Source: Branchiostoma floridae
Lineage: Eukaryota; Chordata; Leptocardii; Amphioxiformes; Branchiostomatidae
Direction: 5' to 3'
Length of the DNA: 64,000 nt
Assembly (NCBI RefSeq): GCF_000003815.2
Contig: NC_049995.1
Span: 11,858,957-11,922,956, forward strand
Positions within the stretch are counted from its first letter, which is position 1. Each line of letters starts with the position of its first letter. The notes below the pieces were generated by a model. The model saw only the letters and a program-made list of their open reading frames with translations, was not told the DNA's origin and made no database searches. The translations under genes were made by a program, and so were the position numbers. Below, in pieces: positions 13,959 through 52,276 of this stretch.

Positions 13959-14468
13959 GTGAGACCTTGGACTGTGGGTAACGCTTCAAGGTTGGAACTT
14001 CTTTGGCGGTAATAAGTACTAGAGTGTTTGTGATCAGTATATGGGGAGGGGGGCAGTGTATGCGAGAGACCTGTACACGCGTACACGAAATTCGTTAAAC
14101 GCATTACCAGGTTAAACATCACATAAGTCATATGTTTGGTGGGTAGATGTTTACACTACATATTCAAACAAAATATTTTGTAGTTTATGGGCCTAAAATT
14201 TACACTTAAGTCTTAGAATTATCGAGAATAATATAAACATGCATGGTAAGAATTAGAGACCCACCTCCTCCCACCCAGGAGGTTTCCCCAGCAGATAAGG
14301 TGCTTTAGTTTAGAACATTAGCTCATTTTTTTACACAATGTTTGAATATGGATTCTAGTTTGACCTTTTTTTTCATTTCTCACTTGACCGTTTCATCATA
14401 GGAGACACAAGTTTGCATGTCCTAATTGATCTTTCCATTTCTTATCTAATCTTTCCTCCATTCCAGAG

Positions 14469-16844
14469 ATGGAAGAATTATTTGGTGAGCCTCCCATTAA
14501 AAAGCTTTGTATGGAACAAACAGGGAAACAAAAAGACATCCAAGAAGAGGAGACAGAACACACAGGATGGCAACAAGATGGACAAGAAGACGTTCAAGAA
14601 ACATACAGTGAGGACCAGGAAACATCTTATCCTAAGAAGGAGACTTACAACAGTGGGAAACAGACAACAACAGGTGTAGAGAGACAGCAGGAAATGCTCA
14701 GTGTAAACTGTACCCAGCCTGAGGAGGGAGTCTCGTCACATCTACATATACAGGCTAGTGCAGGACAGGTGGGGATGGACAATGTGAAGGAGCAGACGAC
14801 AGACTCGGCATGGCAGCAGGACAAAAAGAAGGATGTCCAAAATGACAAAACATGCGATTTAAACAGTACTGGAAATGAGCAAGAATTCTTGCCAGAGAGT
14901 AAAACAACTTTTAACAGAGAGAAGGGGCCTTACAAATGTGACTGGTGTGATTACTCTTCACCAAGAAAAAGTTATCTAGACTTACACGTGATGAGAAAGC
15001 ACACTGGTGAGAAACCCTACATGTGTGGGGAGTGTGGATACAGAACAGTTGCTAAATCACACCTAACCCGGCACATGAAAAGACACACACGTGACATTCC
15101 TGAGAAACCATACAAATGTGACAAGTGTCACTTTTCTGCTGCGCAGAAACGACTATTGCGCAGACACGTTTTGAGAAAACATAGGGGGGAGCAGGCTGCA
15201 GACACGGCACTGCAAGGGGAACAGGCAAAAGAAACTGCACAACAGCAGGACAAAAAGGAGGTCGTTCAAAATGACAAAACAGGCAGTGTAAACAGCCCTG
15301 TAAATGAGCAAGAATTCTTGCCAGAGAGTAAAACAAATTTTAAAAGGGAGAAGGGGCCATACAAATGTGAGTGGTGTGATTACTCTTCACCAAGGCAAAG
15401 TTATGTAGACTTACACGTGATGAGAAAGCACACCGGTGAGAAACCCTACATGTGTGGGGAGTGTGGATACAGAACAGTTGCTAAATCACACCTAACGCGG
15501 CACATGAAAAGACACACACGTGAGATTCCCGAGAAAGCGCACAAATGCGACCAGTGTAGCTTTTCTGCAGCGCAGAAACGACTATTGCGCAGACACGTCT
15601 TGAGGAAACACAAAGATGTGAAGCCCTACGCGTGTAAGTTGTGTGAATTCAAGACAGCTGACAAGGAAACCTTATCCGAACATAAGAGAACACACACAGA
15701 AGAGAAGGCGTACTTGTGTGGCGAGTGTGGGTACAGGACAGCTCACAGCTCTTCCTTCACCCGTCATAAGAGAAAACACACCGGTGAGAAACCCTTCTTG
15801 TGTGACGAATGCGGGTACAGGACCAGAGAAAGTTCAGCCCTGTCTATACACAAGAGAACTCATACTGGAGAGAAACCCTACAAATGTGACCAGTGTGATT
15901 TTGCTGCTACACAGGCATCACATCTGATAAAACATGTCAGAGTAAAACACAATGGTGAGAAGCCCTTTGTCTGCAACGAATGCGACTACTGGACTGCTGA
16001 TAAGGCAACGCTGACAAATCATATGAGAACACATACCGGTGAGAGACCATACAAATGCGACCAGTGTGACTATTCTGCTTCAGGGAAGGGTCAGTTCAAC
16101 AAGCATATGACCAAACACACTGGTGTGATGCCTTTCGTTTGTGACGAGTGTGGATACAGGACAGCCTATAGTGGTTCTTTTACTGAACATAAGAGAATGC
16201 ACACTGGTGAGAAACCCTACTTGTGTGAGGAATGTGGCTACAGGACAGCTCATAAGTCTACCTTAACCCGGCATAAGAGAAAACACACCGGTGAGAAACC
16301 CTTCTTGTGCAGCGAGTGCGGATATAGGGCCAGAGAAAGTTCGAGCCTATCCTCACACATGAGAACACACACCGGTGAGAAACCCTACAAATGTGACCAG
16401 TGCGACTTTTCTGCAGCACAATCTTCGCTCCTAAAAAAACATGTCAGAGTTAAACACAACGGGGAAAAACCCTTCATGTGCAACGAATGTGAATACTGGA
16501 CAGATAACCGGACAAACTTTTTGACTCATCTGAGAAAGCACACTGGCGAGAGGCCGTACAAATGTGACCAGTGTGACTATGCCGCTTCAGAAAAAGGTCA
16601 ATTCAACCGGCATATGACGAAACATACTGGTAAGATGCCTTTCGTTTGTGAGGAGTGCGGGTACAAGACAGCCGCTAGTACTTCCCTAACCCGACACAAG
16701 ATGACACACACTGGCGAGAAACCCTACATGTGTGGAGAGTGTGGATTCAGGACAGCTCATAAGTGTGCCTTAACCCGACATAAAAGAAAACACACCGGTG
16801 AGAAACCTCTCAAATGTTTTTGTTTTGACTATTCTGTTGTGTAA
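14469..16844 (+). CDS. C2H2 zinc-finger protein 1 of cluster (20 fingers)
   Basis: A single coding exon begins after acceptor ATTCCAG (14466); ATG at 14469, stop at 16842-16844, 791 aa. A nuclear DNA-binding regulator is the expected role of such proteins; targets are unknown. Residues about 1-150 are acidic and Gln-rich with the cluster-specific module (EEETEHTGWQQDGQED, GEQTTDS…QQDKK, NCTQPEEGVSSHLH). Twenty C2H2 fingers follow, mostly with TGEKP linkers. Fingers 1-3 with their spacer are duplicated as fingers 4-6 (period about 430 bp), and fingers 8-13 repeat as 14-19. A 21st finger is cut by a nonsense codon after KCFCFDYSVV; the missing half is still readable downstream. No KRAB, BTB or SCAN domain is visible. 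Confidence 0.93.
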   Translation: MEELFGEPPIKKLCMEQTGKQKDIQEEETEHTGWQQDGQEDVQETYSEDQETSYPKKETYNSGKQTTTGVERQQEMLSVNCTQPEEGVSSHLHIQASAGQVGMDNVKEQTTDSAWQQDKKKDVQNDKTCDLNSTGNEQEFLPESKTTFNREKGPYKCDWCDYSSPRKSYLDLHVMRKHTGEKPYMCGECGYRTVAKSHLTRHMKRHTRDIPEKPYKCDKCHFSAAQKRLLRRHVLRKHRGEQAADTALQGEQAKETAQQQDKKEVVQNDKTGSVNSPVNEQEFLPESKTNFKREKGPYKCEWCDYSSPRQSYVDLHVMRKHTGEKPYMCGECGYRTVAKSHLTRHMKRHTREIPEKAHKCDQCSFSAAQKRLLRRHVLRKHKDVKPYACKLCEFKTADKETLSEHKRTHTEEKAYLCGECGYRTAHSSSFTRHKRKHTGEKPFLCDECGYRTRESSALSIHKRTHTGEKPYKCDQCDFAATQASHLIKHVRVKHNGEKPFVCNECDYWTADKATLTNHMRTHTGERPYKCDQCDYSASGKGQFNKHMTKHTGVMPFVCDECGYRTAYSGSFTEHKRMHTGEKPYLCEECGYRTAHKSTLTRHKRKHTGEKPFLCSECGYRARESSSLSSHMRTHTGEKPYKCDQCDFSAAQSSLLKKHVRVKHNGEKPFMCNECEYWTDNRTNFLTHLRKHTGERPYKCDQCDYAASEKGQFNRHMTKHTGKMPFVCEECGYKTAASTSLTRHKMTHTGEKPYMCGECGFRTAHKCALTRHKRKHTGEKPLKCFCFDYSVV

Positions 16845-17172
16845 AAACATGATCTACACCAACATATAGTTAGACATAATTATCAAAATATGTGTAAGGA
16901 AGTAGATTGATGAAATGGTTTGAGCAACAGGATGTATAAATTTTAAAAAATTAAAGGCCTATAAGTATGTATAAGAAAAAAGCTTTAGGAAAAATTATGT
17001 TTTACAAACAAACATAACTACATATGACATTTGATAAATAGAAAATTTTTATGCAATTTAATTGTGATCCAATGTGTGACACTTTAAACCAGTGCAACAA
17101 TTTACACAGAAGAATATGTTCATGGTGAAACTATAAATCTTATTTGCAATTATTTTTTTCACTCTTTTTTAG
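16845..17172 (+). pseudogene. Eroded last finger of ZNF1 and intervening non-coding DNA
   Basis: Directly after the ZNF1 stop, the same frame still reads KHDLHQHIVRH, the second half of a C2H2 finger, to about 16880. The rest, to the acceptor TTTTTTTAG at 17172, is AT-rich with no other feature. The spacing is so short that ZNF2 has no room for its own ordinary promoter and intron. Confidence 0.6.
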
Positions 17173-19805
17173 GGATTGACAAGTCATCCAGTGGGCCTAC
17201 TGTTAAATGGCCTTGTACTGAACAATCTGCAAACAAGGCAGACAACCAAGAAGAGGAGACAGAAGACACAGGATGGCAACAAGTTGGACAAGAGGACGAA
17301 CTACATGTATTTCAGGAAATGTACAGTGAGGACCATGAAACGTATGATATGAACCTACCAGCTTACTACAGTTGGAAGGAGACCAACAACAGTGGGGAAC
17401 AGACAGCTGACACAGAACTGCAGCAGGAGATGTGTGGGAGAAACTGTACCCAGCCTGAGGAGGGAGTCTTATCACTGACTGAAATGGACGACATGGGGGA
17501 GCAGACAACAAACACAGGACGGCAGCAGGACATTCTAAGTGAGGCAACGAGCGGCATAAACTGTACCCAGCCTGAGGAGGGAGTCTCTTCACATCTTCAT
17601 GTACAGGTCCGTACTGAAATGGAAGACATGGGGGAGCAGACAACAAACACGGGACGGCAGCAGGACAATCTAAGTGAGGCAACGTGCGGGGTAAACTGTA
17701 CCCAGCCTGAGGAGGCAGTCTCGCCACATCTACATGTACAGGTCTGTACAGGACAGGTGGGGCTGGATAACATAGGGGAGCAGACAACAGACTTGGTGCA
17801 GCAACAGGAGGAAGAAAAGGATGATCCAAATGACCAAACATTTGGTGTAAACTGTACCATATTTAATGACAAAGAAGTCTTACCTCCCAATAAACAGCTT
17901 CTTCTGGAACATACTGCAATCAAGGCAGACATCAACGAAGAGGAGACAGAAGACACAGGATGGCAACAACATGGACAAGAGGACGGTCTTTTCCAGGAAC
18001 CATACAGCGAAGACCAGGAAATGCATGATGTAAACCTACCATCTTGCTATCCTACAAATGACACTAACAACAGTGGGGAGCAGACAACAGATACAGGACG
18101 GCAGCAGGATGTTTTAGTCGAGGAAACGGGCGGGGTAAACTGTACCCAGCCTGAGGAGGGCGTCTCATCACATCTACATGTTAAGGCCAGTATAGGACAG
18201 GTGGGGATTGACAACATGGCAGAGCAGACAACAGACATGGCGCAGCAACAGGAGGACAAGAAGGACTCTCTAAATGACAAAACGTGTGGTGTAAAGAGTA
18301 CCGTAAATGACGAAGATGATGTGCCAACATGTAAAAGTGAAAAGGGGCCTTTCAAATGTGACCAGTGTGAGTACTCTACACCATGGAGACATAATCGAGA
18401 TCGGCATGTCAGGAGAAATCACACCAATGAGAAACCCTACACGTGTGGGGAATGCGGATATAGTACAGCTTTTAGGTTCGACCTATCTCGGCACATGAAA
18501 ACACATACAGGTCTAAAACCATACAAATGCGACCAGTGTGACTATTCTGCTGCACATAAAAGACAATTGCACAGACACGTCTTGAGAAAACACAAAGCTG
18601 TGAAGCCCTTCGTGTGTGAGGTGTGTGGATATGGGACAGATTTTAGCTATGAGCTAACCCAACATAAGAGAACACACACTGGAGAGAAACCCTACTTGTG
18701 TGGGGATTGCGGATACAGGACAGCTCACAGGTCTTCCTTCACCCGTCATCAGAGAAAACACACCGGTGAGAAACCCTATTTGTGCGATGAATGTGGATAC
18801 AGGGCCAGAGAAAGTTCATACTTGTCAATACACAAGAGAACTCATACTGGAGAGAAACCCTACAAATGTGACCAGTGCGACTATTCTGCTGCGCAGCTAC
18901 CATGCCTTAAAAATCATGTCAGGGTAAAACACTACGGTGAGAAACCATTTGTCTGCAACGAATGCGGATACGGGACAACTAATAAGACCACGCTATCCAA
19001 TCATATGAGAAAGCACACCGGTGAGAGACCCTACAAATGTGACCAGTGTGACTATACCGCTATTGAGAAAGGCCAATTAGTGAAACACGTCATGGTAAAA
19101 CACACCGGTGAGAGACCCTACATGTGTGACGAGTGCCCATACAAAACAGTTTTTAGCGCTGCCTTAACCCAACATAAGAGAACACACACTGGTGAGAAAC
19201 CCTACTTGTGCGAGGAATGTGGATTCAGGACAGCTAGCCAGGCATCTTTAACCAAACATAAGAGAAAACACACCGGTGAGAAACCCTACTTGTGCAACGA
19301 GTGCGGATACAGGGCCAGAGAAAGTTCAAGCCTATCCTCACACATGAGAACACACACCGGTGAGAAACCCTACAAATGTGACCAGTGTGACTTTTCTGCT
19401 GCACAATCAACAAGTCTGAAAACACATGTCAGAGTAAAACACAAGGGTGAGAAACCCTTTGAGTGCAATGAATGTGGATACTGGACGGATAACAGAACAA
19501 CCTTTTTGAATCATATGAGAAAACACACCGGCGAGAGACCCTATAAATGCAACCAGTGCGACTATTCCGCTTCAGAGAAAGGTCAACTTAAAAGACATGT
19601 CATGACCAAACACAGGGGTGAGATGCCTTTTGTTTGTGATGAGTGTGGGTACAGGACAGCCGTAAGCGCTGCCTTGACCCGACATAAGCTAAAGCACACC
19701 GGTGAGAAACCCTACATGTGTGGAGAGTGTGGATACAGAACAGCCTATCGCCACGCCTTAATACGACATGGGAAAAAGCATGCCAGCAAAAACCTTGAAA
19801 TGTGA
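17173..19805 (+). CDS. C2H2 zinc-finger protein 2 of cluster (17 fingers)
   Basis: The exon opens after acceptor TTTTTTTAG (17172) and is in frame from GG-ATT-GAC to the stop at 19803-19805. The first in-frame ATG is at 17319 (828 aa); the frame upstream is coding-like and homologous to the N-termini of ZNF1 and ZNF3. Where those have GG-ATG-GA this gene has ATT, so the start comes either from an upstream exon or from 17319. The N-terminal ~340 residues contain the acidic Gln-rich module many times (repeated GEQTT(D/N)TGRQQ, NCTQPEEGVSSHLHVQ, EEETEDTGWQQ). Then come 17 C2H2 fingers alternating ECGYRT and QCDYSA types with TGEKP linkers. After finger 17 the frame breaks to …KNLEM-stop, while an 18th, frameshifted finger continues in another frame. 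No known effector domain was seen. Confidence 0.88.
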
Positions 19806-21849: not shown

Positions 21850-23385
21850 GCAAAAGTAGGGGGGGAGCTGAGGCTCCCGGGTTAGGGCGGGCAGGCCGCC
21901 TGCCTGGCACGGAAGTGCTCAACGTTGGGAGCGCTTACAACCGTGCCAGGCAGGGCATTCCACTCGGGAATTGTGCGTGGGAAAAAAGAATGTTTGTAGA
22001 TATCGGTGCGTGCAAATATGTGTTGATATTTGAAGTCGTGACTACCCCGGGTGCGCCCTTGGGCAGGCTTCAGAATATTGCTGGCGTCTATGTTAATATT
22101 ATTGTTGACTACTTTATAGAAAAAGGTGAGGCGGGCGTTCCTCCTCCTTTCGGAGAGAGGGCGCCACTGCAGGTCTGAAAGCATTTGTGTCATGCTGCTA
22201 GTCTGCCGGTAGTCATTTAGGGTCACTCGGGCTGCCCTGCGCTGGACGGCCTCCACCGCCTGTATCCCTTTGTTGGTGTACGGGTCCCAGACGATGGCAC
22301 TATATTCCAAGTGAGGCCGTACCAGCGCTTTGTAACAAGTGGCCTTGACCCTAGATGGACAATGGGTCAAGTTGCGCCGAATGACTCCTAGGACCTTACC
22401 AGCTTTGCTAGTGGCGTGGTTGATATGGGTGTCCCACCGCAAATCGTCGGACAGTTGTACTCCAAGATAGGGGTGGGACTTAACACCGGTAAGGGCTTCT
22501 CCACAGAGGGAGTACTGAGTTATGATGGGGTGCTTTTTACGGGTGATATGGAGGATGTGACATTTAGAGGGGTTGAACGACATGAGCCAACGATTTTGCC
22601 ATTCTGTTAGCGCATCGAGGTCAGACTGCAGCCCTTGTGCGTCAGAAGGCTTGCTGATAGTTCGATACATCAAGCAATCGTCAGCAAACAGTCGAACATG
22701 TGAGTCTACGGAATCGGGTAGGTCATTAATGTAGAGCAGGAATAGCAGAGGGCCTAACACAGTACCCTGCGGAACTCCAGAGGTGACCTTGACAGCTTTA
22801 GATGTTCCACCGTCAAAGACAACCCTCTGGGTTCTCTCCGTAAGGAAGGCCCTAAGCCAAGACTGAAGGAGGCCAGAAATACCATAGTGCTCGAGCTTGC
22901 TCAGCAGACGTTCGTGTGGCACAGTATCAAATGCTTTGCTAAAGTCAAGCACCGCGGCATCGACCTGTTTGTTCTGGTCCATGTTCTTGGCCAGGTCTTG
23001 GAGGGTAAGCACCAGCTGGCTCTCGCAGGACAGACCCTTCCTGAAGCCGTGTTGCGCAGGGGACAGAATGCCATGAGCGTCTAGATGTTTCATCATGTGG
23101 CTGTGCACGATGTGTTCGAGCACTTTACCACAGACCGATGTCAGAGACACCGGCCTATAGTTTGATGGCAAGGTTCTGTCCCCCTTTTTGAAGATTGGAG
23201 CGATGTTAGCTGTTCTCCAATCTTCAGGAACATCTCCCGTGGATATTGACTGGGAGAATATGACCTGTAATATTGGCGCAATTTGTTCGGCTATGGTCTT
23301 CAGGAGGCGAGGTGGTAATCCGTCTGGTCCTGTGGCCTTGCTGGGGTTAAGACAGGAGAGCTGTTTGGCTACCCCCCACTGTTAT
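21850..23385 (-). mobile_element. Non-LTR retrotransposon (CR1/jockey-like LINE), 5'-truncated, reverse transcriptase ORF
   Basis: An open minus-strand frame from about 23380 to the stop at 21882 encodes the C-terminal part of a LINE ORF2. The reverse transcriptase blocks are in order: KATGPDGLPPRLLK, YRPVSLTSVCGKVLE, HGFRKGLSCESQL, VLDFSKAFDTVPH, SGVPQGTVLGPLLFLLYIND, the catalytic FADD box and a KCHILHIT region, then a ~200-residue C-terminal domain. No stop or frameshift interrupts the RT, so insertion is recent or the copy was constrained. A stop near 23385 and the lack of an endonuclease domain show 5' truncation. The 3' side ends in a short repeat-like tail (ATGCAGATGCAGACACACAC). It is antisense to ZNF3, probably in its intron. 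Confidence 0.92.
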
Positions 23386-23548
23386 GTTAAGGGAGGGGAC
23401 AGTTGGAGCTTTGGGTTCGCCAAGGGTAGGAACGGTATGTGTGTGTGTAAGTGTAAAATTTGACCACTTTTCTGCTTTGAAAGGGGGTGAACTACTCTCC
23501 ACCTGCATATAGATCAATTTTTAATATTTTCTTTCCTCAATTCTAGGG

Positions 23549-25027
23549 ATGGATGACTTAACATGTGGGCATCTCGTTAAAGAGCACTGCACAGAACAAA
23601 CTGGAAACCAAATACACATGAAAGAGGAGGAGACAGAAGACACGGGGTTGCAACAAGACAGACAACAGGACAAGCTATTCCAGGAAACATACAGTGAGGA
23701 CCAAGAAATGTATGGCGAAACCTGCTACCTACCAACCTATTATCCTGAAAAAGTGACCTACAACAAAGGAGAGCAGACAGCGGACATGAGACGGCAGCAG
23801 GACGTTCTAAGCAAGGAAACGTGCAGGGTAAACTGTACCCAGCCTGAGGAGGGAGTCTCATCACATCTACATTTGCAGGTCCATACTGAACAGGTGGAAA
23901 TGAACATGGGGGAGCAGACAACAGACACGGGACGGCAGCAGGGTGTACCAAACTACAAAGTTTGCGGTGAGAACTGTACCTGTTCAGATGAACAAGTCAT
24001 GCCACAGGCAACTGTGCAGAGTCATACATGTACAGAGCAGGATGGCAGCCATGTGGCAAGAAAAACTTTTATTTGCTGGAAATGTGGTTACCGGTCGGCT
24101 ATAAGGAGTCACATGTCTAGGCACATGAGAACACACACAGGCAAGAAACCCTACATGTGCGGGGAGTGCGGATTCAGAACTGCTCATAGCGCAACATTAT
24201 CTCGACACCAGAGAACGCACACCGGAGACAGACCCTACGTGTGTGGTGAGTGCGGATACAGGGCGGCGGAGAAGTACCACCTATCCCGACACCAGAGAAC
24301 GCACACTGATAATAAAACCTACATGTATGGGGAATGTGAATATGGAATGACTGGCCATTCCCAATATACGACAATGCAGACAAAGGAGAAACCCTACAAG
24401 TGTGACCAGAGCGACAATTTTGCTGCGCAGAACTTTCACGTAGACCACCACATCATGGAAAAGCACACTGATGTGAAACCCTACATATGTGGGGAGTGTG
24501 ACTATAGTACAGCTGTTAAGTCCCACCTATCTCGGCACATCAAAATACATTTAGGTGAGAAACCCTACAAATGTGACCAGTGTGACTATTCTGCTGCACA
24601 GAAGGGCCAACTAGACAAACATGTGATGACAAAACACACCGGTGAGAAGCCCTACATGTGTGGAGAGTGTGGGTATAGGACAGCTGCTAGGTATGCCTTA
24701 TCCCGACATATGAGAACACATACCGGTGAGAAACCTTACAAATGTGACCTGTGTGACTACTCTGCTGCACAGAAAGGCAACTTAGATGAACACATTATGA
24801 TAAAACACACGGGAGAGAAACCCTACATTTGCGAGGAATGTGGATACAGGACTGCAAAAAGTTCAAACTTATCCCTACATAAGAGAAAACATACAGGTGA
24901 GAAACCCTTCAAATGCGATCAGTGCGACTATTCCGCTGCACGGAAGGTTCAAGTTGACAGACACATGATGGTGAAACACACAGTTGAGAAACCCTATGTG
25001 TGGAGAGTGCTTGTACAGGAGCACTAA
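23549..25027 (+). CDS. C2H2 zinc-finger protein 3 of cluster, partly degenerate
   Basis: Coding exon after acceptor TTCTAG (23546), ATG 23549, stop at 25025-25027, 492 aa. The N-terminal ~170 residues carry the same acidic Gln-rich module as its neighbours. About eleven finger units follow: nine look intact, number 4 has lost its first Cys (YMYGECEYG) and its His pair, and number 5 has Cys to Ser (CDQSDNF). The C-terminus is frameshifted in what should be the next finger (EKPYVWRVLVQEH instead of a KPYVCGECGY-type start). It is therefore a shorter, partly eroded paralogue. Probable nuclear DNA-binding protein; targets unknown. Confidence 0.9.
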   Translation: MDDLTCGHLVKEHCTEQTGNQIHMKEEETEDTGLQQDRQQDKLFQETYSEDQEMYGETCYLPTYYPEKVTYNKGEQTADMRRQQDVLSKETCRVNCTQPEEGVSSHLHLQVHTEQVEMNMGEQTTDTGRQQGVPNYKVCGENCTCSDEQVMPQATVQSHTCTEQDGSHVARKTFICWKCGYRSAIRSHMSRHMRTHTGKKPYMCGECGFRTAHSATLSRHQRTHTGDRPYVCGECGYRAAEKYHLSRHQRTHTDNKTYMYGECEYGMTGHSQYTTMQTKEKPYKCDQSDNFAAQNFHVDHHIMEKHTDVKPYICGECDYSTAVKSHLSRHIKIHLGEKPYKCDQCDYSAAQKGQLDKHVMTKHTGEKPYMCGECGYRTAARYALSRHMRTHTGEKPYKCDLCDYSAAQKGNLDEHIMIKHTGEKPYICEECGYRTAKSSNLSLHKRKHTGEKPFKCDQCDYSAARKVQVDRHMMVKHTVEKPYVWRVLVQEH

Positions 25028-35700: not shown

Positions 35701-38700
35701 CAGACTAAGTACATTGTATATAACAGATCTAGAGATACAGTTTACATCTTTTAAAGTCCTAATAGTCTTATAAGTCTATAAGGTAAAAGCATTATGCTCT
35801 TAGCACACAATTGTGTCCAAATTAGACATGATGGTGTATCCAAAATAGGCCGCTGCTCTGCTGTTGGTGGCCAACAATGAAATTTATCATATAGCTAGAT
35901 GGAGTTGGCCAATCAGAGGCCCCCATTTCCCATGGGTTATCAGGCCGTAACCTCAAAAGTGGTCAGTTATTAGAATAACCGACCACTTTTTGGACCGCAC
36001 CATTATACAGGGGACAGTCATGAATTTTTTTGTACTGTTGTTTGTGTGTAAACCATGCATAACTGTCAAAAATATTATGATTGATTGGTTATGTTAATTG
36101 GGGTCCACATGGGGAATATATCGATACTTGAAAAGGAATTATGCTGATTTTACACATTTTCATTATTGCTTTCTAACGTGATGAAGCCGGTACCTTCCTA
36201 AATCACTTTGTATATACGTACTTTGTCGTGCCCAAGTGAAAAGGCTCTGCATGGGGGGTAGCACCTTGACGCCACGACAGTGTGGTAGGATATAGGTGNN
36301 NNNNNNNNNNNNNNNNNNNNNNNNNNNNNNNNNNNNNNNNNNNNNNNNNNNNNNNNNNNNNNNNNNNNNNNNNNNNNNNNNNNNNNNNNNNNNNNNNNNN
36401 NNNNNNNNNNNNNNNNNNNNNNNNNNNNNNNNNNNNNNNNNNNNNNNNNNNNNNNNNNNNNNNNNNNNNNNNNNNNNNNNNNNNNNNNNNNNNNNNNNNN
36501 NNNNNNNNNNNNNNNNNNNNNNNNNNNNNNNNNNNNNNNNNNNNNNNNNNNNNNNNNNNNNNNNNNNNNNNNNNNNNNNNNNNNNNNNNNNNNNNNNNNN
36601 NNNNNNNNNNNNNNNNNNNNNNNNNNNNNNNNNNNNNNNNNNNNNNNNNNNNNNNNNNNNNNNNNNNNNNNNNNNNNNNNNNNNNNNNNNNNNNNNNNNN
36701 NNNNNNNNNNNNNNNNNNNNNNNNNNNNTCTGTGTCGCAGGTCGACCCCTGTGGGCGATGTGCGCATTCCTGACCAGGGATTATCTCACCATATACACCT
36801 TGGGGCGGGGCATTAACCCTTTATTGTCAAATAGGCACTCGGGTGGATATTAAGTTATTTCTAGTGTCACGTTCATTTGATTCCATTATATCAAAATTTT
36901 TTGCCTTGATAAAAGAAATAAATTGAAAGGTTATTAAAGACTTTGAAAAAGCTCACGACAAAATTGTGGTAAGTCTTAAAAGAAATAACTTAAAATAAAG
37001 GTATATCAAAGACTTTGAAAAACTGACAGCAGAATTGTGATACATGTATTTCATGACATGATGTTTGTTGTGTGTATAACAGGCATCAGGAGAGGCTGTT
37101 TACACTAACGACCTCCCCCGTCTCCCTGGGGAAGTCTACGCTGCCTATGTGACGTCCACTGTGGCCAACTGTAAACTGGGCTCCATTGACTCTACTGAAG
37201 CCATGGTAGGTTGAACAGTTTAGCTTGTGCTTTATTTTAATCATTGCGGTCGTATGACAGAACCCAGAGGTCTTGGGTTTGAATGCTGTCAATTGTACCA
37301 ATCATGTTTCTTAGGAAAGGCACTTTGCACAACTTTCCTCACTCCATCCAGGTGTAAAAATGGGTACTTTGCACATAAATAGTGGGAGGAGATGGTTGGG
37401 CTCTGCCTCCCATCCAATACCATGCCCTAGATAGTGTGGACAACAATAATCTGATCCCTGTGTCCTTAAAAAAGGCGATGAGACTGACTTTGGCTTTTTC
37501 TCTGCTATTTCATTCCAAACATTGCACACGCATTTGCAAAATGTACAGCAAATTGCTGTCTCAATTACTGTAGAGCATCGTGATGTTTAATACAGGATAT
37601 TATAAAATTAGAATTCTTGTACACAACCAGGTTATACTTATTGTGCTTACGTTTCAGTGTCTATCAGACATCTTCCTCAGAGCTTCTGACTGAAGTTCTG
37701 CTTCTCGTCGCTACATGTAGCCGATGTAGGTGGCGCTTTTGAGGCGAGAACACAATCCCAAACATGGCGAAGTTTGTATCCCCCCTCGAGGGGTGTCTGA
37801 TAGACACCGAAACATAAGCACAATAAGTATAACCTGATTGTGTACAAGAATTCTCCTATATTCTACCAACCTTATGAAATTATTTTTGGATGTATAATAC
37901 AGTTGTATCTCTTTCTCTTCCTTTTTTTCTGGAGACCATGCCAGGAGCCGTGGCCTGCCTGACAGCCAAAGATGTTCCCGGGATCAACAACTTTGCTAGA
38001 CCTATGAGACAAACAGAAGAGGTGACTAGATTACGCAAAAAATGACCTTTACAATTGAGTTGTCATTTAAAAAAAAAAGTAAGCTTTCCTTTGATATAAT
38101 TCAAGAACAACAGACATAATCATGGAAAGTTTGAGCTCCTTCTTTGTGACCCACTCTATAAGTAACTTTGAAGCCCTGTTCTCATCATTTGATATCATAA
38201 TAATTCTAACAAACAAAATATCATTTTAAAGGGTAATAAATAAGAATAGAGAATAATGCAATGTAATTGGTAAAGTATTCACTGATATATGATTGACTGA
38301 AAACAAGTTTTGTGTTGAGTTTAGATTTTGTGCAGTGGTGAGGTGCTGTATGCTGGGCAGCCTATAGCTCTGGTGGTAGCAGGTACAAAGTTATACATTA
38401 TGTATAATACTAGAATTTTTTTGTATTTTTTTGTATTTCATCGGTGAAGGTTAGACATATACTAATGTCATAGAATGGCAAGGTCAATTCTAAGGTCAAA
38501 GAATTCGAAGAAGGTGCTCAGTAATTTGTTCAACCTTCCTGACTACTTAGATTTCATAATGAACGTACCTCTTTTTACCAAACTTGTTTTATTATATGCA
38601 CGCTTGCACCAGTTTGGGGGTTTCCAGAGGATGTCATCCATGTAATCAAATCAATGTGGCCTAAGCTACACAAATAAACATGTTAAACTTTGTAACCTAT

Positions 38701-51078: not shown

Positions 51079-51086
51079 GTTTGGAG

Positions 51087-52268
51087 TAGCCTCCTTCACC
51101 GGCCTCTCTGGGAAGCTTGGCAATTTTTTTTTTTGGGGGGGGGGGGGGGCGGTTAAGTCCATTCCCGATTTTTAACCGGGAAAATGCCGGGAAAGGAATA
51201 TATGCCGGGAAAGGAAAATACACCGGAAAACTTGTACGGGCTAAGCGAAATCGGCTTCCCAGGAGGCCTGCTACTTGTCGCTATCTACAAACGCCATAAT
51301 GATTAAAAATGCCTTTCAAACGGCCAATTAATGTATTCCCCAGAAGTTATTCCCACTGCCGCGAGAAGCAATTCACACTTCAACGTTAATAGTGCACGGC
51401 CACCCCGAAGCGTGCCACAAACCTACGTAACATTACCGGAAACCGTGCACAGACTGCCTGCCTTTGTCACTTCCAGAGTTACAATAATTGATACAACAGT
51501 TTGAATAATTGATACACGTGCAAAACTTACATTTCAGATCAGTGTAAAACATTTTTTCCAGTGGGTTTAAAACATACTTTCATACACCATCGATGATCCG
51601 ACTGGCAATCTGAATGGGGAGGTGGGCGAGAGTTACGTAAAAAGACGGTCGCTCGATCTCGAAAAATACAAAAAACGATTTCCCACACGTAATGCAAACA
51701 AGCCTTGCCTGATCAGCAACAAGGGCATGAAGTGGCGAGATGACGATGACCATGGTGGGTTCTCTGGCAATCGACGGCAAAATCTGATAGCAGAGCGACT
51801 TGCCTTGGCCTGTAGCAAGGCCAAGAAAACAATCATTGCCTTCGCAGACCACAGCAATGGCCAGGGATAGTCCTTCCCTCAACTCGGGGAAGCTCTTTCG
51901 TACATGATGGGAAGTTCCAGCGGAGTTTTTCTACGGTAAATACTCGTTTTCAAATGAGCCGTGTTTTGAAATGCGTGACCCGACGACCGTTACAAAGTTA
52001 TGGGTCATCGCGCAACGGGATGTGTGCCGGGCTGCCAGTGCTGGACGCGTTTATGACGGGAAGTTCGCACATCCATACCAAATGGTGATAAGTGTTTTTT
52101 AATAGGGCTTTGTAGATAGCGACAAGTAGCAGGCCTACTGGGAAGCCGATTTCGCCTAGCCCGTACAAGGTTTCCGGTGTATATTCCTTTCCCGGCATAT
52201 ATTCCTTTCCCGGCATATTCCCGGTTAAAAATTGCCAAGCTTCCCAGAGAGGCCGGTGAAGGAGGCTA
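51087..52268. mobile_element. 1.18-kb DNA transposon with long TIRs, 8-bp target duplication and a helicase fragment
   Basis: GTTTGGAG flanks both ends exactly (51079-51086 and 52269-52276). The termini TAGCCTCCTTCACCGGCC … GGCCGGTGAAGGAGGCTA begin inverted repeats of roughly 185-210 bp that include repeated GCCGGGAAAGGAATATA words. The left arm has gained a T/G homopolymer run (51126-51150). The ~790-bp interior carries a minus-strand RecQ-like helicase fragment. No transposase was seen, so this is a non-autonomous or deleted copy. An 8-bp duplication fits hAT, P or Zisupton-type elements; the superfamily is not settled. Confidence 0.88.
51580..51930 (-). pseudogene. RecQ-like superfamily II helicase fragment inside the transposon
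   Basis: An open frame of about 115 residues carries helicase motif I in RecQ form (CFLGLATGQGKSLCYQILP) and motif Ia (VIVISPLHALVADQ). Motifs II-VI (DExH and beyond) are absent, and the frame has no good ATG (upstream TAG, first candidate TTG). Downstream residues do not match helicases. It cannot be an active helicase. It is either the remnant of an element-encoded helicase or a captured host fragment. Confidence 0.75.
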
Positions 52269-52276
52269 GTTTGGAG

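Follow-up and report, generated by a model that had tools for sequence, protein, structure and literature searches.

The inverted-repeat element analysed here, located in a 64-kb window (the whole stretch of DNA that was analysed) of a lancelet genome, is very probably a non-autonomous copy, reduced by internal deletion, from a lineage of cut-and-paste transposons that combines a RecQ-type helicase with a DUF6589 protein and generates 9-bp target duplications. An orphan-looking helicase scrap is thereby assigned to a definite transposon lineage of a chordate genome, and the association suggests a transposase role for DUF6589, a Pfam family whose function is unknown. The 10-kb copy with identical terminal inverted repeats (TIRs) described below, together with many short TIR derivatives, also provides material for studying the role of RecQ in DNA transposition, including whether it determines the 9-bp stagger.

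Exact duplications and long TIRs, by which the sequence-only reading had defined the element, were confirmed, and the element is a real transposon copy (Table 1). Its termini TAGCCTCC...GGAGGCTA fall exactly at 51087 and 52268 with GTTTGGAG on either flank, eight bases being the longest exact suffix/prefix match among the lengths of 1-15 that were tried. The TIRs (160-205 bp) displayed identical tips (36/36 bases) and, past the extra stretch of about 45 nt in the left one, continued over 124 bp at 96% identity. No other occurrence of the tip octamer was recorded on either strand of the 64-kb window.

Table 1. Features of the window element and full extent of its relative on contig C9. Positions are those of the window unless a contig is given.
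Feature	Position	Strand	Remarks
Whole non-autonomous element	51087..52268	.	1182 bp; delimited by termini and family copies
Target site duplication, left copy GTTTGGAG	51079..51086	.	exact repeat
Target site duplication, right copy GTTTGGAG	52269..52276	.	exact repeat
Left TIR	51087..51291	+	about 205 bp; extra stretch of about 45 nt (T/G tract) at about 51123-51167, absent from right TIR
Right TIR	52109..52268	-	160 bp
Open frame of 116 aa holding the RecQ remnant	51580..51930	-	past residue 74 probably intron read-through
RecQ helicase exon remnant, motifs I and Ia	51709..51891	-	homologous to helicase exon of C9 relative
Helicase motif I, LATGQGKS	51796..51819	-	ORF translation and PDB matches
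Donor-like site CAG|GCAAGG, end of helicase homology	51703..51711	-	CAG|GTAAGA in C9 relative
Mostly non-coding stretch 5' of exon	51892..52143	-	colinear with C9 relative; extends into inner TIR
C9 relative, full element	C9:15256250-15266264		10,015 bp; both ends present

A RecQ-type segment with motifs I and Ia had been described as the sole recognisable coding content of the element, and this held: in the thirteen ORFs examined, only the Pfam family DEAD scored above cut-off (E 1.9e-7), and no transposase was found. The same remnant matched TIGR00614 with an E value of 2.1e-12 and 46.6 bits, far under the whole-protein cut-off as expected for a fragment, and its matches in the PDB included bacterial RecQ (4e-9) and human BLM (about 1e-8). 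The best RecQ protein matches stopped at residues 75-77, i.e. 1-3 residues beyond a site resembling a splice donor in which GC replaces GT. Because these matches end beside the donor-like site, the fragment was read as an exon remnant with a putative donor. The corresponding DNA was CAGCTAAGA in L027, the most diverged copy of the family, and CAGGTAAGA in the C9 relative.

The window element belongs to a non-autonomous family with multiple copies in the genome. Searching the window's own genome (513 Mb, 431 contigs) with the DNA of the element gave at least 179 matches, TIR cross-matches counted, among which at least 16 were other nearly full-length copies with 91-96% identity; both counts are lower bounds, since the best 40 of 448 candidates were scored. 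Target site duplications were compared in 26 copies with both ends (window copy counted), leaving out L014 and L027, in which one terminus was missing, and places with a single tip. The duplication was an exact 9 bp in 21 of them, 8 bp in three (the window copy, L011 and L024), imperfect in L051 and absent in L016, and the 9-bp sequences varied from copy to copy. The usual duplication of the family is 9 bp and the 8 bp of the window copy are an exception, so that the latter length, which the sequence-only reading had used as a class mark, loses this value.

The proposal made there to look for full-length relatives through the TIR was successful for the short form, i.e. the nearly full-length copies mentioned above, and not for an autonomous one: no autonomous copy with the long TIR of the family itself was found in the assembly by TIR DNA searches (best 40 of 448 and best 40 of 396 candidates). 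The two longest near-identical copies, L025 and L026, were rejected as longer autonomous copies; both are the same 1.2-kb element, interrupted by unrelated inserts at two different points. A further thirteen places, in which the TIRs were solitary or rearranged, were also examined, and the listed open frames of seven of them were inspected by eye. A similarity search of the thirteen places with exon 1 detected helicase sequence nowhere outside the family copies, and mutual comparison of ten such places revealed family sequence in common and otherwise short stretches only. Two copies displayed particular ends. In L018 (C4:21546781-21548550), the left TIR end was duplicated within one 9-bp duplication. 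L020 (C2:24113842-24115456) occupied a 9-bp target CAAGGAGGC followed by TAG, which resembles the element's own end GGAGGCTA, and this copy was perhaps inserted at or beside the end of another element.

The helicase exon was present in 20/20 further copies (partial with a stop in L027, with a deletion in L028). Some other copies had lost it partially (L044, L045, L047 and L048) or completely (L043). Among 21 sequences of the helicase part, changes relative to the majority amounted to 45 non-synonymous and 10 synonymous ones, tallied by copy rather than by event; set against the numbers of possible changes, they gave no sign of purifying selection on the exon. In the short copies, the exon seems to be carried along as a passenger.

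A protein search of the genome with the window exon, in which 107/107 candidates were scored, placed the best match outside the family at C9:15265682-15265876, with 71% identity. This match is part of a 10-kb element whose tips display the same TAGCCTCC as the window element. Its TIRs cover 153 bp and are 100% identical to each other, which suggests a recent insertion, and it is flanked by a perfect 9-bp duplication, CAGGTGTGC. The right end was recorded as GGAGGCTA followed by CAGGTGTGC, and CAGGTGTGCTAGCCTCC was therefore predicted as the left end; the next 4 kb, fetched after the prediction, contained it with 17/17 matching bases.

Two multi-exon genes, convergent with respect to each other, were recognised in this C9 element from open exons and domain matches. 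The minus strand encodes the helicase, whose open exons comprise motifs I, Ia, II (DEAHCIPEW), III, IV, V and VI together with a cysteine-rich segment (Helicase_C above the Pfam cut-off, RecQ_Zn_bind under it). The gene on the plus strand matches DUF6589 (PF20231) in three groups of exons, with E values of 1e-16 and 1.9e-13, both above cut-off, and 3e-5, under it. Beyond helicase families and DUF6589, six-frame Pfam scans of the element, performed in chunks, yielded nothing above cut-off, and neither a hAT nor a MULE transposase domain was among the results. The DUF6589 protein, the only candidate seen, is a probable transposase. Comparison of a DUF6589 exon with solved structures gave no match, and viral contigs contained no relative of either the helicase exon or the DUF6589 exon.

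Colinearity between the window element and the right part of the C9 element covers the inner TIR side, the 5' non-coding region, the exon and the donor (alignment score 243). The upstream part of the alignment alone scored 100, and none of 300 shuffles exceeded 49. Similarity was not above chance for the right TIR taken alone beyond the 8-bp tip (score 32, shuffle maximum 43), nor for the left interior (score 58, shuffle maximum 61), and the C9 element is for this reason considered a relative and not the direct parent of the window element. The same lack of recognisable relationship over most of the TIR and the left interior would also be expected if another transposase moved the family and the helicase exon had been captured from a RecQ and DUF6589 transposon nested in an ancestor. 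Such a history is unlikely, considering that the 8-bp tips are identical, that the duplications are of the same 9-bp class and that homology begins right beside the TIR with order and strand maintained. Even less probable is a MuDR/MULE-type element that by chance harbours part of a helicase transposon. MuDR/MULE elements typically combine 9-bp duplications with long TIRs, and on both counts the window family would fit. Yet, the C9 relative is devoid of a MULE transposase domain, it shares the 8-bp tips, and its homology with the window element passes the exon into flanking non-coding DNA.

The sequence-only reading had wavered between a deleted copy of an unusual helicase-encoding family and a host gene fragment captured between TIRs. 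The former is borne out by the 10-kb relative on C9, with its multi-exon RecQ helicase, same tips and colinear homology. For the latter, the recommended comparison with host RECQ was made with a RecQ locus (C7:12556204-12558158) that has no DUF6589 within 8 kb and that we infer to be a host gene; it was 40% identical to the window fragment, versus 71% for the transposon helicase on C9. These values do not support capture from a host RECQ gene, which was rejected, all the more since homology to the transposon runs on outside the exon. The hAT superfamily is characterized by 8-bp target duplications, and a hAT-type element with a RecQ fragment of the host between its TIRs would account for the 8 bp of the window copy and for ORFs without transposase. 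This combination is extremely improbable: besides the closer identity of the fragment to the helicase of a transposon with the same tips, only 3/26 family copies display 8 bp and the 9-bp rule (21/26) removes the argument drawn from this length, while no hAT domain was detected in the six-frame scans, run in chunks, of the C9 relative. A hAT identity was rejected as well.

The preferred reading, an internally deleted member of the RecQ and DUF6589 lineage, implies the following scheme. Complete members would carry two convergent multi-exon genes, coding for the DUF6589 protein as probable transposase and for the RecQ-type helicase. The window copy would have retained the ends and, from the right-hand gene, the 5' region with one helicase exon, the remainder having presumably been deleted. 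Transposase supplied in trans would recognise its TIRs, and insertion would have followed a staggered cut of 8-9 bp. The helicase may play a role in excision or end processing.

Proximity of the two genes was also observed elsewhere in the genome. Sixty RecQ loci were listed from fragment matches (window-family copies left out) and TIGR00614 matches (best 32 of 254 candidates), and 47 DUF6589 loci from a genome search in which 82/82 candidates were scored; DUF6589 matches were found in 0/14 control genomes. DUF6589 occurred within 8 kb of 17/60 listed RecQ loci, with 15 pairs convergent, two on the same strand and none divergent, whereas simple arithmetic for 60 and 47 loci gives a chance expectation of about 0.09 pairs; some of the 17 pairs are copies of one another and not independent. 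The other 43 listed RecQ loci displayed no DUF6589 match within 8 kb, a remainder that may comprise host genes, broken copies and unscored matches. As a caution, a good part of the loci resembling RecQ in such a genome may consist of transposon genes.

Three helicase-bearing copies, located on C2, C17 and C7, define a second lineage with tips TAGTCTCTACC; their flanking sequences diverge abruptly at a single position. DUF6589 was found nearby on C2 and C17, and not on C7. The left ends predicted for the C2 and C17 elements were searched for and not found, and both ends were shown for the C9 element only. The 25-base tip TAGTCTCTACCAGACTCCGGATCGC of this lineage had 507 exact occurrences in the genome versus none for the reversed control, and short copies with this tip displayed an exact 9-bp duplication in 6/10 cases, one of 7 bp in 1/10 and no exact one in 3/10. 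Among the first 100 occurrences listed, many were paired about 160-210 bp apart and a few 1.8-2 kb apart, corresponding to abundant short derivatives. A further set of 15 near-equal RecQ-like matches (C8:23425616, C1:25184201, C17:12411411 and 12 more) displayed 55-56% identity around residues 24-56 and one TAG each, with a 91-aa frame in 10/15; they perhaps form a second non-autonomous family carrying a helicase exon.

With regard to known systems, the closest likeness was to AcademH, a lineage of the Academ superfamily reportedly described by Kojima in 2020. Common traits are 9-bp duplications (in 21/26 window-family copies and in the C9 relative, the window copy itself having 8 bp), a RecQ-type helicase (motifs I-VI in the C9 relative, a single exon remnant in the window copy) and TIRs (160-205 bp in the window element, 153 bp and identical in C9). 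A passage of PMC10045372 presents AcademH as animal and fungal DNA transposons that encode a helicase and generate 9- or 10-bp duplications, and attributes those of 3-4 bp to AcademX; the shorter duplications ascribed to helicase-bearing Academ elements in the sequence-only reading are at variance with this description. The wording 'RecQ Helicase in Academ' occurs in an extract of PMC3627910, and AcademH findings are also cited in an extract of PMC10799480. In the present elements, separate genes, mostly in convergent orientation, encode the helicase and the putative transposase, the latter being recognised only as DUF6589, and the extracts of PMC12210899 and PMC10294476 contain no word on AcademH gene layout. 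The most economical view is that the RecQ and DUF6589 lineage is probably AcademH-like, a filing based on the published description (helicase, 9-10-bp duplications). More speculatively, and with a low probability, these elements could constitute a helicase-encoding lineage of their own outside Academ, its two genes separate and convergent, which would have supplied a large share of the RecQ-type helicase loci of a lancelet genome and would mobilise hundreds of small derivatives. Among the papers searched, none mentioned DUF6589, none joined Academ, amphioxus and transposable element, and none treated target site duplication and helicase together with transposon, amphioxus and Branchiostoma.

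Kolobok elements use TTAA targets, in contrast to the 9-bp duplications of varied sequence in the window family. They have recruited RecQ as well, in KolobokH and Kolobok-1_CCri, where the helicase lies beside a DDD/E transposase and, in Kolobok-1_CCri, on the complementary strand as observed here (passages of PMC9587614). According to the same passages, reports of KolobokH are limited to fungi, and a red alga is the source of Kolobok-1_CCri (PMC9587614).

Elsewhere in the window, a run of N was located at about 36290-36770 (530 N in the whole window). An open frame with reverse transcriptase at 21882-23381 on the minus strand (RVT_1, E 9e-35) probably belongs to a LINE-type element. Long frames with C2H2 zinc-finger arrays, neighbouring paralogues of which only the first was checked with Pfam, occupied positions 14430-16844, 17088-19805 and 23525-25027 on the plus strand.
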